Source: Gracilariopsis chorda (lineage: Eukaryota > Rhodophyta > Florideophyceae > Gracilariales > Gracilariaceae). Taken from it: 64,000 bases of DNA. Numbering within the stretch: the stretch's first letter is position 1; every line of letters begins with the position of its first letter. Under the pieces are notes generated by a model. That model worked only from the letters and a program-made list of their open reading frames with translations. It was not told the DNA's origin and searched no databases. Both the position numbers and the translations under genes were made by a program. Of this stretch, positions 23,060 through 31,961 are shown in pieces. The DNA is taken from the NCBI GenBank assembly GCA_003194525.1, contig NBIV01000036.1:310001-374000 (forward strand). Reading direction: 5' to 3'.

Positions 23060-24595
23060 TCACTTTTCTTCGTAGACATACTCGCGGAGAACCGCATTGC
23101 GAGTAGGGTGTCTCAGCTTTCGCAGAGCCTTAGCCTCGATCTGCCGAATCCTTTCGCGAGTAACAGCAAAAATAGTTCCGATTTCCTCTAGAGTTTTCAT
23201 CTTACCGTCGTCAAAACCGTATCTCATGCGAACGACATCGCGTTCTCTTGGGCTAAGAGTGTTAAGAACGTTCTCGATATCCTCGCGAAGCAGCGATTTA
23301 ACGGTAGCTTCCTCCGGCGTATCACCGTTCCACTCGATGAAAGAGCCGAGGGTAGCAGCCGAGTCTCTAGAATCCCTGCCAATCGGGGTCTCCAAGCTGA
23401 GAGTGGAGCGACTTGATCTTGTGAGGAAGCGAAGTTTTTCCACGCTAAGGCGCATACGCTCCGCGATCTCAGACTCCGAAGGTGGTCTGTTGAGTTCTGA
23501 GAAGAGCTGCTTTGTGGTCTTTCTGATGGCGGAAATGGTATCGTTGACGTGAACCGGAAGACGTATAGGTCTAGAGTGATCAGCAATTGCACGGGTGATG
23601 GCCTGTCTGATCCACCAGGTCGCATAAGTAGAAAACTTGAAGCCCTTATTTCCATCAAACTTCTCAGCGCCGCGAATCAGGCCAATGCTACCTTCCTGGA
23701 TGAGATCTTGAAAGGTGAGGCCGCGATTGAGGTACTTTTTAGCAATAGAAACGACCAGCCGTAAATTAGCTGCGACCATATGCTCTTTGGCACGAAGACC
23801 ATCTCTGAGTACCTGTCTGAAGGTAGGATGATCCATTGAAGCAGCGTCTGCCCACTCTTCTATACTTGGATGACGGCCATTGATGCTCTTGAAACGGGCG
23901 CTAATGCGCTCCAAAGCAAGGAGCTTGGAGATTTGACGGGCAAGGGTGATTTCCTTGTCAGCATCCAGAAGCTTAACCTCACCAATTTCGCGAAGATAGG
24001 AGCGAATGGTATCGTTTGCGCTAGTAGTTTTTGGTTGAGCAGTATTAAAGGTATCTTCATTCGAGCTAGACGCGGAGGTTGACGTGCGGAACGAGCGAGG
24101 CGAAGATGGATCGGGGGCAAAATTGGTATCGATTACAGAGTGCTTTTGAAGTGCAGATCCCTTCTTGCGTCTGGAGGTGCGAGTGGTCGACTTCTTGCGG
24201 GATGGTGCTTGTGGGGCGGTGAAGTATACCTCGCGGGTGCGGTCTTCGCGACTGGCGGCTTCTAGAACTTTGAAATTGAGATAATCTTCCCTGTTGCGTC
24301 GGGTAGATGTGGTTGGAAGGGGCCGGTTTGATTCGGAAGCAGAACCTGGTTGGCGGGGAGTGAGATGGGGCACAGAGGGTGGGGCAGAAACGGGGGCATC
24401 TACAGCAGTGCGAGCAGCTGCTACGGCGGCGGCGGCAACGGCAGCGGCGGCAACGGCGGCAGCGGCGGCGGCAGCGGCGGCAGCGGTGGTGGTGGTGGAG
24501 GGAGTGGGAGAAGGATTGGCAGTGAGGATGTCAGGCGCTGTGTTGACGCGGGTGGGCGGGGCGTAGGCGGAGCGCGGATCATGTGTGCGGGGCAA
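23060..24595 (-). CDS. SIG: Plastid RNA polymerase sigma-70-type factor
   Basis: The open frame gives 511 residues but has no ATG near its 5' end. It directs the bacterial-type plastid RNA polymerase to promoters. Region 1.2 is at about 194-225 (DTIRSYLREIGEVKLL). Region 2 is at about 267-340 (NLRLVVSIAKKY, DLIQEGSIGLIRG, FSTYATWWIRQAI), containing the -10 reading and DNA-melting residues. Region 3 is at 345-425. Region 4 is at about 436-500, with the helix-turn-helix TLEEIGTIFAVTRERIRQIE for the -35 element. Before region 1.2 lies a 190-residue extension with poly-Ala and a basic Ser/Thr-rich part, typical of nuclear-encoded plastid sigma factors. The likely start ATG (24655-24657) is in another frame, just before a run of seven C; see findings. 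Confidence 0.93.
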   Translation of the reverse strand: MPRTHDPRSAYAPPTRVNTAPDILTANPSPTPSTTTTAAAAAAAAAAVAAAAVAAAAVAAARTAVDAPVSAPPSVPHLTPRQPGSASESNRPLPTTSTRRNREDYLNFKVLEAASREDRTREVYFTAPQAPSRKKSTTRTSRRKKGSALQKHSVIDTNFAPDPSSPRSFRTSTSASSSNEDTFNTAQPKTTSANDTIRSYLREIGEVKLLDADKEITLARQISKLLALERISARFKSINGRHPSIEEWADAASMDHPTFRQVLRDGLRAKEHMVAANLRLVVSIAKKYLNRGLTFQDLIQEGSIGLIRGAEKFDGNKGFKFSTYATWWIRQAITRAIADHSRPIRLPVHVNDTISAIRKTTKQLFSELNRPPSESEIAERMRLSVEKLRFLTRSSRSTLSLETPIGRDSRDSAATLGSFIEWNGDTPEEATVKSLLREDIENVLNTLSPRERDVVRMRYGFDDGKMKTLEEIGTIFAVTRERIRQIEAKALRKLRHPTRNAVLREYVYEEK

Positions 24596-28454: not shown

Positions 28455-29267
28455 GCGGATATAGCTTCGGTAGATATAGAGCGCAGAAGGAAGATGGGGT
28501 GTGTGTTTTTTTTTTTTCTTCTTCTCTTTATTAGTTTTGTGGTTGTTTTCGTCTTGGGTTGATGTGTAGGGGTGTATGGGTATGTTTGACTTTCTTTTTT
28601 TGACTGCTGCTTTCTGTTTTTTTTTTTGTTGTTTCTGACTTGATGAAGAAGAAGAGCTTTTTTTTTGTTAACGAGACTTTTGGAAGCTGAAGTGAGGTAG
28701 CATAGCGATGTTTCTCTGCGGCGAGCGTAACTAGTGGAGTAGAAGACAGCGGTGCGCTTTAGCCCTTTGGTGCCAAAGGTAAGGGTTAAGGGTTACCAAC
28801 GGTACCGTTGGTACGTTTGGCGTTTGTGCAGCACGCATGCTTTGCGACGTATCTACGAAGGTACAGTATCCTATAGACGACGGTGCGTCATAAGATAATG
28901 CCAACCAGCAATTCGACGCATTTACAGTTTTTTCATTTTCAACTACAAAGCGCCAGCGAGGCGTGACCAAGGCGCGCATGAATCTTTGCCACGTATCACA
29001 CGTGGGGAGAGTCCGTTCAGAACGCATGCTGTGGCAATGCTTGCCACTTGATGTTTCGCGCCACTGAGTGGGAGCGCGTGGGCGCCCCTCAGCGGAATCG
29101 CTTGCCACAGCGCTGCGCCGCACCCTCCGCGTCAGCATCCGCGCGCGCGTAAGGTGTAGTGCACAAATCGACCCGCAGTCGCCGCTACTTTCCGTCGTTT
29201 GCGCGTTTGGTCGCCGCGCTGCTCCCCCAATGTGCCATGTGAACTCCCGACCAATCCACCCCCAACC
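28455..29267. other. Spacer between ELL and MRS2
   Basis: The first 250 bp are T-rich on the plus strand (several runs of 8 to 10 T) and look like a 3' untranslated region. A 20-bp perfect palindrome lies at 28794-28813. The 200 bp before MRS2 become GCGC-rich and then C-rich, like other promoters here. Confidence 0.5.
28794..28813. repeat. 20-bp perfect palindrome TACCAACGGTACCGTTGGTA
   Basis: Perfect self-complement with no loop. Its half, TACCGTTGGTA, also occurs near 9741. It could be a dimeric protein-binding site or chance. Confidence 0.5.
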
Positions 29268-30875
29268 ATGCCCCCCACACTGCGACGTTCCTCGTCCGCA
29301 CCCTCCTTTTCCCGTCACCAACCTCCCCGGCGCTCCCATCTTCGTCGCCTGCTTCACGCTTCGCGAAGATGCATTCCGTCCCGTCCGAACCCCAACTTGT
29401 ACCCAACTCCACTTCCACCCACCCCTACACCCTCGCTAAACCCCCCAGAACCTAATGACCATGTCGACCCGCTTATGGACAATGCCAACCTGCATAAACT
29501 CTACGCGCGTCGAAACCCACTGCTTAGCTTTCTCGAACTTGACATGTATGGAATATCTCAAACGCGCAATCTCACCCGTCAGCAAATCCTCGCCGACATT
29601 CGTAGAAATGCCAATTCATCAGAAACAGCAAACAATCACCGTCCCCATTTTCTCAATCGCACCCCAGCAAACCGCTACCCAGCCGCCATACTCGACCACC
29701 CGCAATCGAAGAGAGAACGACGAACATCTAGAAGAACCCGAGCAGCCACCAGAAATTCCGCTGCCAGCCCCCTTCACTTCCCTTCCGCAAACAACAAACG
29801 CCGCAGTGCAAACCGCCTATCCATTCGTGACATGCGCCAAATGGACCCGCAGTTCCCTGCAAACCCGGCCATTTGGATCCGCGAGGACGCTATGGTCGTC
29901 AGTCTAGAGTCGGTTCGAGCCATTATTCTGCACAACAAGATACTGATTTTCGACCCGGAGAATGACCTTTCGAAGAAACCCATCTGGTACATCCGCAAGC
30001 GCATTACCAGTAATGAGGACTTGTTTTTGCCGTTTGAATTCCGCGCTCTGGAAGGCATTTTGTTGCATACCTGCGCCGTTCTTGAACGCGATTTTGTCGG
30101 CATTGAACCGCAGTTACGGCAGACGTTGGGTACATTGCCTACCCGTATTACGAATGAGGGTTTGGAGATGTTGCGACTTCTTGAACAACGCTTGAATCAT
30201 TATTACTCCCGCGTGCGCAAGGCGCAGTATGCTTTGCAGTCCGTTTTGGATGATGATGAGGACATGGCTGAAATGTATCTCAGTGAGAAATACAAAACCC
30301 CTTCGCTTCGTAGAAATCCACTCGATCATGATGAGGCTGAAATGCTTTTGGAGACGTACATGCAAACGGTTGACGATGTCACCATCAAGGCGGAGTTATT
30401 GAATCGGGCTATCGATGACACTGAGAATCTCATTGAGATTCATCTCGATACCATGCAAAACCGACTTTTGTTGGTTGATTTGTTCATCACTGCCATCACT
30501 ACCACTTTGTCATTCGGCACGTTGGTGACCAGCATTTTTGGAATGAACATGCCACTGCCGCGTCAGATCACCGATCTTCCTAGTAGCCAGTTTTACTTTT
30601 ACGGCTGCGTGTTTGTGACGCTTACTATTATGGCCATTGGTTTGGCTTTCTTGATGAGGTGGTGTCGACGAGAGGGTATTTATAGAGGACGGCCGCCTTC
30701 CAGTAAGAGGTGGCGCATGCGTAAGCAGAAGAGTGCTATCATGCAAGTGAGTGAGGCTGTTCGCCAGCAGGCGGAGGAAGTGCTGGCAAAGGCAAACAAA
30801 ACCGCTCATCGTCAGCAGTTCAGCTGGGAGAAAAAGGCCGCTGATCTCACCGTCAGGGACGGGCGACTGGTTTAG
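29268..30875 (+). CDS. MRS2: CorA-type magnesium channel, MRS2 family, probably mitochondrial
   Basis: 535 aa from the ATG at 29268; upstream in frame only a TTG. The presequence is Arg/Ser-rich without acids (MPPTLRRSSSAPSFSRH), fitting the mitochondrial inner membrane. The MRS2 soluble domain contains REDAMVVSLESVRAIILHNK and LPFEFRALEGILLHTCAVLE, both family marks. Two membrane helices lie near the C-terminus (about 401-424 and 441-465). The first ends in the Gly-Met-Asn selectivity motif (FGMNMPL, 425-427). The protein forms a pentameric channel for Mg2+ influx. A disordered insert (about 110-190) is rich in Asn, Arg and Pro. The C-terminal tail of 70 residues is basic. Convergent with the NDK gene, 252 bp away. 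Confidence 0.93.
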   Translation: MPPTLRRSSSAPSFSRHQPPRRSHLRRLLHASRRCIPSRPNPNLYPTPLPPTPTPSLNPPEPNDHVDPLMDNANLHKLYARRNPLLSFLELDMYGISQTRNLTRQQILADIRRNANSSETANNHRPHFLNRTPANRYPAAILDHPQSKRERRTSRRTRAATRNSAASPLHFPSANNKRRSANRLSIRDMRQMDPQFPANPAIWIREDAMVVSLESVRAIILHNKILIFDPENDLSKKPIWYIRKRITSNEDLFLPFEFRALEGILLHTCAVLERDFVGIEPQLRQTLGTLPTRITNEGLEMLRLLEQRLNHYYSRVRKAQYALQSVLDDDEDMAEMYLSEKYKTPSLRRNPLDHDEAEMLLETYMQTVDDVTIKAELLNRAIDDTENLIEIHLDTMQNRLLLVDLFITAITTTLSFGTLVTSIFGMNMPLPRQITDLPSSQFYFYGCVFVTLTIMAIGLAFLMRWCRREGIYRGRPPSSKRWRMRKQKSAIMQVSEAVRQQAEEVLAKANKTAHRQQFSWEKKAADLTVRDGRLV

Positions 30876-31127: not shown

Positions 31128-31961
31128 TTATTCGTATATCCATACGGCTGAGGTCGGTTCCCACGCGGTGAGCTCTCCCTGCTCGAACCAAAGAGAGATT
31201 TCGCGTTGGGCTGTCTCGACGGCATCGGATCCACTGATTCGCACGCAGAAAAGGAATGCATTAGTGGTTAGAAACTGTGGTCGTTGGCGTGTTGCTCGCT
31301 CGCAATGGCATGTATCAAAACGTACTGAATCACACTGTTTCCAAGCAGCGTGCAACATAGGGAGCGTACAAGATGAACGGAAAGAGGGTAAAACGTCAGA
31401 ATCTCTAAACAAAACCATAAAAATGGGCGCAGCTGGGAATCTCTAATTCCAAGTGGCGAAGCGCAAAACGTACTTTCGACCAACATCAACAGCAAAGTCA
31501 CCTCGGATTGTTCCTGGCGCACTACTCAGCGGATTAGTCTCACCTATCATCTTACGTGCAGTCACAACCACCTGTTCCCCTTCCCAAACCATAGCGCACA
31601 CCGGCCCGCTTGTAATGAAATCCACAAGGTCCTTAAAGAAAGGCTTTTCCTTTAGAGCAGAATAATGCTCTTCAGCTAGTTGCTTGGAAGGCACAAGCGT
31701 TTTGATCCCCACTAATTTGTACCCCTTGGCTTCGAAACGAGAAATTATGTTGCCGAGAATCCCACGGTTCATTCCGTCGGGCTTGACGGCGATGAAGGTT
31801 CGTTCTGTGCGAGCCATGCGCGGTGTTGTCAGATTTGCTGTGCATTGTCGCTGCATTCTTGCGTTCGATAGCCTTGGGGTGAAGCTGCATGTTCGTAGCG
31901 GACACGACGCTACAGTCGGCTTCTTGCATGGGGTGGACGCAACCGGTGAGACGAATGCCAT
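31128..31961 (-). CDS. NDK: Nucleoside diphosphate kinase, organelle-targeted; three exons including a 9-nt microexon
   Basis: Exons on the minus strand are 31961-31474 (488 nt), 31334-31326 (9 nt) and 31233-31128 (106 nt), together 200 codons plus stop. The enzyme passes the gamma-phosphate of ATP to NDPs through a phosphohistidine. Conserved blocks are [49 protein letters not shown] and, after splicing, GRNVIHGSD with the catalytic His166, then ending VWIYE. The start at 31959-31961 opens a targeting peptide of about 49 residues ([14 protein letters not shown]...) before [12 protein letters not shown], with a Phe close to the N-terminus, suggests the plastid; mitochondria are possible. The first exon alone would end in an unrelated tail. 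Confidence 0.93.
31234..31325 (-). other. NDK: NDK intron 2 (92 nt)
   Basis: Donor CA|GTACGTTTTGAT and acceptor GCGTGCGAATCAG|TGGATCC. The His codon CAT is split by this intron. Confidence 0.85.
31326..31334 (-). other. NDK: 9-nt microexon of NDK encoding Val-Ile-His
   Basis: On the minus strand: GGAAACAG|TGTGATTCA|GTACGTTTT. With the flanking exons ending CGA-AA and starting T-GGA-TCC it yields AAT GTG ATT CAT GGA TCC, that is Asn-Val-Ile-His-Gly-Ser. It has a consensus AG before and GT after. The donor GTACGTTTT is identical to that of exon 1. Not confirmed by transcript data. Confidence 0.85.
31335..31473 (-). other. NDK: NDK intron 1 (139 nt)
   Basis: Donor AA|GTACGTTTTGCG after the Arg codon of GRN; acceptor CTTGGAAACAG|. 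It contains in-frame stops if retained. Confidence 0.85.

Follow-up and report, generated by a model that had tools for sequence, protein, structure and literature searches.

A nine-nucleotide exon within the active-site motif of a nucleoside diphosphate kinase gene from the red alga Gracilariopsis chorda

In the acid invertases (GH32) of plants, a mini-exon of nine nucleotides encodes the D-P-N/D-G/A portion of the β-fructosidase motif, as set out in the available part of PMC8831610. This mini-exon is described as constitutive, and the second intron is removed first (PMC4674806, available in part). Plant AP2 genes have a nine-nucleotide microexon (VYLG) that is likewise in-frame, lies inside the core domain and is widely missed, according to the same part of PMC8831610. 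The one-nucleotide exon of Arabidopsis APC11 is another very small exon, constitutive and mis-annotated (excerpts of PMC4674806). A survey of 45 plant microexon tags recorded none in Chlorophyta, and red algae do not appear in the available portion of that survey (PMC11096116).

Among the titles and abstract openings of a partial literature library, no published microexon carrying a catalytic residue in a red alga was found. By the figures in the available text of PMC5880011, the intron positions held in common with green plants number 121 in G. chorda, 212 in Chondrus and 1199 in Galdieria. With so few positions in common, two introns that are situated nine bases apart are notable. The nucleoside diphosphate kinase (NDK) gene described here has such a pair. 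The exon between them resembles the invertase mini-exon in having nine nucleotides, in being in-frame, in encoding part of a catalytic motif and in being often missing from reference annotation (PMC8831610, in part). The initial annotation of the locus had stressed the rarity of exons of this size; the plant invertases, in which a nine-nucleotide mini-exon supplies part of a catalytic motif (same excerpts of PMC8831610), show that the exon is not unique in kind.

Gene structure and splice signals

The window, a 64,000-nucleotide stretch of contig C36 (381,967 bases) in a 91.3-Mb assembly of 1,081 contigs, has the NDK gene on its minus strand, from 31961 to 31128. An MRS2/CorA-like magnesium transporter ORF (29199-30875, plus strand) is convergent with this gene and ends about 250 bases away from it. 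Farther off, the minus strand encodes a sigma-70 family protein (23063-24595), which has regions 1.2, 2, 3 and 4 and a long N-terminus rich in alanine and is probably a plastid sigma factor encoded in the nucleus.

The sequence of the NDK gene was read directly, and the spliced product was rebuilt by script. Exon 1 (31474..31961, minus strand, as are all features of the gene) is 488 nucleotides long, encodes an N-terminal extension and the NDK core up to GR(AA), and ends in GGTCGAAA; the Pfam NDK match within it spans profile positions 1-112. It is followed by intron 1 (31335..31473), which is 139 nucleotides long and has GT..AG borders (GTACGT...CAG). The microexon, TGTGATTCA (31326..31334), consists of nine nucleotides, which supply the third base of the Asn codon, the Val and Ile codons and the first two bases of the catalytic His codon. 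It has GT-AG introns on both sides and in-frame junctions. Intron 2 (31234..31325) is 92 nucleotides long and has the same kind of borders (GTACGT...CAG). The last exon (31128..31233, 106 nucleotides with the TAA stop) begins with the last base of the His codon and runs from GSD to the terminal WIYE and stop. Both introns are in phase 2; they lie nine bases apart, with Val-Ile and all but the last base of the catalytic His codon between them.

Upon joining the three exons, 603 nucleotides or 201 codons including the stop are obtained, encoding a 200-residue NDK that reads GRNVIHGSD. The exon lengths (488+9+106) and the coordinates of the initial annotation were all correct when the gene was rebuilt, and the nine bases restore the motif exactly, as it had proposed. 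Its statement that skipping of the microexon preserves the frame also holds: exon 1 joined directly to the last exon gives an in-frame product of 197 residues with GRNGSD. Retention of intron 1 leads to a stop after 172 residues, and that of intron 2 to a stop after 184. The NDK motif N-x-x-H-G-S-D is present in the spliced product, and in the deposited G. chorda protein described below, only with the microexon included.

All splicing models were enumerated across the final 404 bases of the gene, with GT or GC as donors (54 sites), AG as acceptors (23 sites) and introns of at least 30 nucleotides. A single one of the 33,411 two-intron models yields both [N/D]xxHGSD and the WIYE end, and it is the model with the microexon at 31334-31326; no one-intron model over these 404 bases does so. 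The initial annotation had named a different internal exon as one case that would overturn its reading, and none of the 33,411 models has another internal exon that supplies VIH. The proposal of a nine-nucleotide microexon that holds two of the three bases of the catalytic His codon is thus supported by the enumeration, as it is by the deposited protein, P0004. Intron 2 contains a second triplet run, TTG-ATA-CAT (Leu-Ile-His), and LIH is seen in 19 proteins among the matches listed in the first two protein searches. This run was considered as a source of the missing residues and rejected, as no enumerated model joins it in frame.

The nine bases might be nothing but a random match in one 240-nucleotide intron, belonging either to a pseudogene or to a gene with another active-site exon. 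The match is short, and intron 2 holds the Leu-Ile-His run by chance, although no splice model uses it. A strict pattern, AG^Y-GTN-ATH-CA^GT (a caret marks a splice junction), nevertheless occurred in only 21 of 200,000 dinucleotide shuffles of the 240-nucleotide interval. A looser one, allowing V, I or L, then I, V or C, then CA, occurred in 174 of 200,000, and each pattern is found once in the 64-kb window when both strands are taken together. In addition to these rates, the single splice solution, the intact frame and C-terminus, the VIH of P0004, the conserved position of intron 1 and the read-through signatures in relatives speak against coincidence, which we regard as extremely improbable.

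The donor of the microexon is identical to that of exon 1, as the initial annotation had observed, over exactly ten bases (GTACGTTTTG). This 10-base donor has two matches in the window, solely at these two introns, against a mean of 0.07 expected from shuffles. A common origin of introns 1 and 2 was considered and rejected: past the first ten bases, their similarity score is equalled or exceeded in 127 of 200 shuffles. The hexamer GTACGT was looked for at five exon pairs of ubiquitin-conjugating enzyme genes from the same genome. The pair on contig C101 has a single splice solution, with donor GTACGT; that on C125 is ambiguous, with four solutions, two of which have GTACGT; that on C115 has donor GTAAGT; and the remaining two pairs gave no splice solution. 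The donors of an NDK paralogue on C216 are GTGCGT, GTAAGT and GTAAGT. Since GTACGT also serves as donor at one intron elsewhere and may do so at a second, it is not peculiar to the NDK gene, and no conclusion is drawn from the shared hexamer. Its use elsewhere does not account for the four further bases that both donors share.

A candidate branch point in intron 1, CTGAC (31395..31399), lies 65 nucleotides before the end of the intron, and one in intron 2, CTAAC (31267..31271), lies 38 nucleotides before the end; both are consensus matches only. In intron 1 CTGAC is followed by a pyrimidine-rich stretch, and the next AG is the acceptor; in intron 2 the next AG after CTAAC is likewise the acceptor. 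Such matches are what the intron-defined splicing of two short introns would require, although a match to a consensus is not proof.

The deposited protein and its relatives

P0004, the nucleoside diphosphate kinase deposited for G. chorda, is 100% identical to the spliced product over its 152 residues and contains VIH, with the catalytic histidine at position 118. The deposited gene model therefore has the microexon. It matches PF00334 with 189.3 bits (cut-off 27) over profile positions 1-134 of 135, NDK being the sole Pfam match, and NCBIfam NF001908 with 200 bits (cut-off 155).

P0004 starts at Met49 of the 200-residue product (codon 31817-31815). The preceding 48 in-frame residues (31818..31961, minus strand), which begin MAFVSPVAS and resemble a plastid transit peptide, are absent from the deposited 152-residue model. 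A start of the form MAF or MxAF is found in 26 of the 255 proteins among the matches listed. These include a Purpureofilum protein of the same 200-residue length, three MMETSP transcripts and P0007, which from the style of its identifier we take to be from Cyanophora. A phenylalanine motif has been reported at the N-terminus of plastid precursors in Cyanophora and Porphyra (PMC2222254, available in part). An N-terminal extension with a Phe near the start is a mark of red-algal plastid-targeted proteins, and MAFVSPVAS has it. Because of this beginning and of the similar starts among the matches, the reading from Met1 is preferred; the deposited model probably begins too far downstream, although translation may also start at Met49. 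The NDK of G. chorda would accordingly be imported into the plastid, to judge from its N-terminal sequence, and the assignment to an organellar type made in the initial annotation is supported by a MAF start common to other red algae; a red-algal source for the gene is supported as well. The extension is missing from the Chondrus protein P0005 and from several unannotated ORFs.

Three protein searches, in each of which the best 120 of 8,000 scored candidates were kept, gave 255 different proteins; with the exon 1 translation from the window, 256 sequences were classed by the residues that follow GR of the motif. The histidine motif is found in 217 of the 256. Another 29 are unannotated ORFs among the matches listed that break at the same donor, reading K-stop (12), KYV (16) or KYA (1) after GR. 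As read from the protein, they imply AA^GTA at the same base, unless a K-stop stands for AAG-TGA, and the position of intron 1 is thus conserved. Five more of the matches listed break at an earlier intron, after PGT; P0135 is a fish gene model of chimeric make-up, and one sequence is the exon 1 translation from the window itself. The last three of the matches listed are the annotated Chondrus crispus protein P0005 and the EukProt entry P0124, both with GRNGSD, and P0191, which reads GRNVVQ-stop. In vertebrate fused NDK models (P0183 and P0135) a second NDK copy follows directly on VG(R/S), suggesting that in animals, too, an exon junction lies about one codon or less from the position of the red-algal intron 1.

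A tree was built from 59 rows and 110 columns; with so few columns and with 25 of its 55 inner branches open, it was not used for dating. In this tree 27 of the 29 ORFs that break at the same donor fall into a clade of 29 rows (98/93) that also includes G. chorda and Chondrus, and in which P0004 is the sole row with VIH. Another, P0188, shares a clade of eight rows (100/99) with P0124, and P0208 is placed weakly beside Galdieria (53/76). The 8-row clade comprises P0124, P0188, P0191, P0203, P0209, P0211, P0212 and P0217, six of which (P0188, P0203, P0209, P0211, P0212 and P0217) seem, as read from the proteins, to have an extra intron after PGT.

The sequence GRNGSD in P0005 and P0124 is the exact product of the G. 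chorda junctions joined without the nine nucleotides. The two proteins might be genuine, their genes having lost VIH, so that the microexon would not be conserved beyond close relatives of G. chorda. As annotated, GRNGSD is indeed their sequence, and the Chondrus-like read-through P0122 lacks a microexon signature. Two separate losses would, however, need to match the boundaries of the G. chorda microexon to the base. Moreover, the break at this donor is also seen in P0122, whose match to the Chondrus protein has 99% identity and covers 77% of that protein. While 217 of the 256 sequences (matches listed) keep the histidine motif, 29 of the other 39 break at this donor. A genuine loss of VIH is therefore very unlikely. 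The GRNGSD of both proteins is best explained by missed microexons, and in P0005, to judge from these sequences, the histidine is very probably missing solely through an overlooked microexon, the annotation being wrong at the catalytic site. The remark of the initial annotation that such exons escape most gene finders fits P0005 and P0124, but not the deposited G. chorda model, which has the microexon. In an alignment of 37 proteins the histidine is present in at least 90% of the rows, but all rows other than P0005, P0124 and P0004 had been pre-filtered for the motif, and the alignment is therefore not counted as evidence of conservation.

The DNA was seen for G. chorda only; in relatives the microexon was read from proteins translated through intron 1, which allow several codons. 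The tails of such ORFs were checked for codon compatibility with AG^Y-[V/I]-[I/V/C]-CA^GTRNG. Three of the 13 tails of at least 15 residues are compatible (P0187, P0200 and P0205), whereas 0.24 are expected; at least as many came up in 24 of 20,000 shuffle runs. The same proteins make up three of the four tails of at least 40 residues, a number reached in 4 of 20,000 runs. These figures are partly post hoc, as the test was written after the signature of P0205 had been spotted by eye. The implied lengths of intron 1 are 167 nucleotides in P0187, 151 in P0200 and 120 in P0205, near the 139 of G. chorda, and as a control the pattern was found to have 11 matches in 29,113 residues of coding sequence. 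The fourth long tail, that of P0122, has no microexon signature before it ends. The GRNVVQ-stop of P0191 would fit either an intron at the position of intron 2 in a gene without intron 1, or a transcript from which intron 1 had been spliced while intron 2 was kept; in either case the layout is not uniform in its clade.

The initial annotation had suggested a search for the same microexon in other red algae. The donor in 29 ORFs, the three compatible long tails and the two GRNGSD proteins point to its presence there, while P0122 and P0191 do not fit. We infer from these translations that the microexon exists in species other than G. chorda; its layout looks conserved among the relatives of G. 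chorda and is probably present in a second red-algal clade.

None of the NDK paralogues found in the same genome (on contigs C216, C98 and C160) has the microexon. The C216 gene has its motif within one exon. The C98 locus (162875-163276) is a long ORF in which an NDK domain with an intact NATHGSDS is followed by an adenylate-kinase-like part, as we take its GGPGSGKGTQ to indicate. The third (C160, 14424-13975 and downstream) is a mitochondrial-looking NDK with one phase-2 intron in the same motif, at AT^C CAT. This intron falls between the two intron positions of the gene in the window, and one genome thus has three phase-2 intron positions within nine bases of NDK active-site sequence.

Inclusion and skipping of the microexon

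The AlphaFold models of P0004 and of the skipped form have mean pLDDT values of 91.6 and 89.2, the skipped form in this comparison being represented by Chondrus P0005 instead of a G. chorda protein. The two models agree in the helices listed and in the remaining strands. The strand that bears the histidine, residues 117-119, is present in the P0004 model and missing from that of P0005. Across block 111-120, P0004 has a mean pLDDT of 84 and P0005 one of 66; in P0005, owing to the deletion the block holds three later residues. AlphaFold is a poor judge of stability. Nevertheless, the loss of this strand from the model indicates that the skipped product is probably damaged and that a healthy but inactive twin of the enzyme is doubtful. 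The expression "full-length but catalytically dead", used in the initial annotation, probably understates the damage. Despite having no catalytic histidine, P0005 and P0124 score 162.2 and 171.4 bits against Pfam (cut-off 27) and 171.7 and 182.2 bits against NF001908 (cut-off 155). The Pfam and NCBIfam NDK profiles therefore do not flag the loss.

The initial annotation had also raised the idea of a built-in switch, in which the cell would control inclusion of the microexon, for instance by temperature or light, and deliberately make a full-length inactive NDK. Nine is divisible by three, so the skipped mRNA stays in frame, and two annotated red-algal proteins, P0005 and P0124, have exactly the skipped form. 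The available portions of two reports add a cold-induced exon skipping in a potato invertase gene (PMC8483784) and, in the congener G. lemaneiformis, exon skipping in 392 of the new long-read events (PMC9762032). The skipped annotations are explained equally well, however, by gene finders that miss nine-nucleotide exons, as in the invertases of rice and maize; most coding microexons have a PSI above 0.5, and in plants retention is commoner than skipping (available part of PMC8831610). The splice signals look ordinary, no regulatory element was identified (though without a systematic search), and the strand lost from the predicted product makes a stable inactive twin doubtful. The switch is thus unsupported and, in our estimation, improbable. 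A broader version, in which inclusion would be regulated across red seaweeds and kept in the Gracilariopsis-Chondrus clade, with the GRNGSD forms of Chondrus and P0124 as real isoforms, would let one nine-base splicing decision set the amount of active plastid NDK; we consider it decidedly unlikely.

It is highly probable instead that the microexon is an old, routinely included exon between two intron-defined phase-2 introns, with a layout that is clade-wide. Each of the short introns (139 and 92 nucleotides) would be recognised across itself, by way of its good donor, its branch-point match and, as acceptor, the AG that comes next after this match, so that the nine-base exon would need no exon definition. 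Splicing of both introns by intron definition is what their sequences suggest. The microexon would then be included as a rule, since active enzyme can come only from the included mRNA, and its inclusion would be constitutive. Skipping or retention would be splicing noise, giving damaged or truncated protein. The arrangement appears to be old, as it would be common to the Gracilariopsis and Chondrus clade and probably to a second red-algal clade.

Comparison with known enzymes and small exons

P0004 can be matched to solved NDKs along almost all of its sequence, with 5u2i (residues 4-152) as the best match and 1w7w (2-151) as another, and in this it resembles the group I NDKs (NME1-4 type). It differs from them in that the G. 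chorda gene splits the codon of the catalytic histidine, the first two bases of which are in a nine-nucleotide exon.

The plant invertase mini-exon belongs to an unrelated enzyme, lineage and position, and it is in phase 1, whereas the NDK microexon is in phase 2 (comparison with the available text on the invertases). It was considered as a homologue and rejected: the gene is an NDK with neither GH32 nor DPN, and the likeness is one of analogy only. The plant AP2 microexon lies in a DNA-binding domain and carries no catalytic residue. The APC11 exon is a single nucleotide, the skipping of which shifts the frame; constitutive inclusion, which it is reported to have, would be shared by the NDK exon to judge from the sequence. 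The NDK microexon is therefore a plant-type nine-nucleotide exon carrying core residues, in a new gene and a new lineage, and a homologue of neither the invertase nor the AP2 exon. It extends to red seaweeds the lesson, drawn from plants, that tiny exons can carry essential residues, and it poses the question of how an intron-poor lineage came to retain, over an active site, a pair of introns with only nine bases between them.
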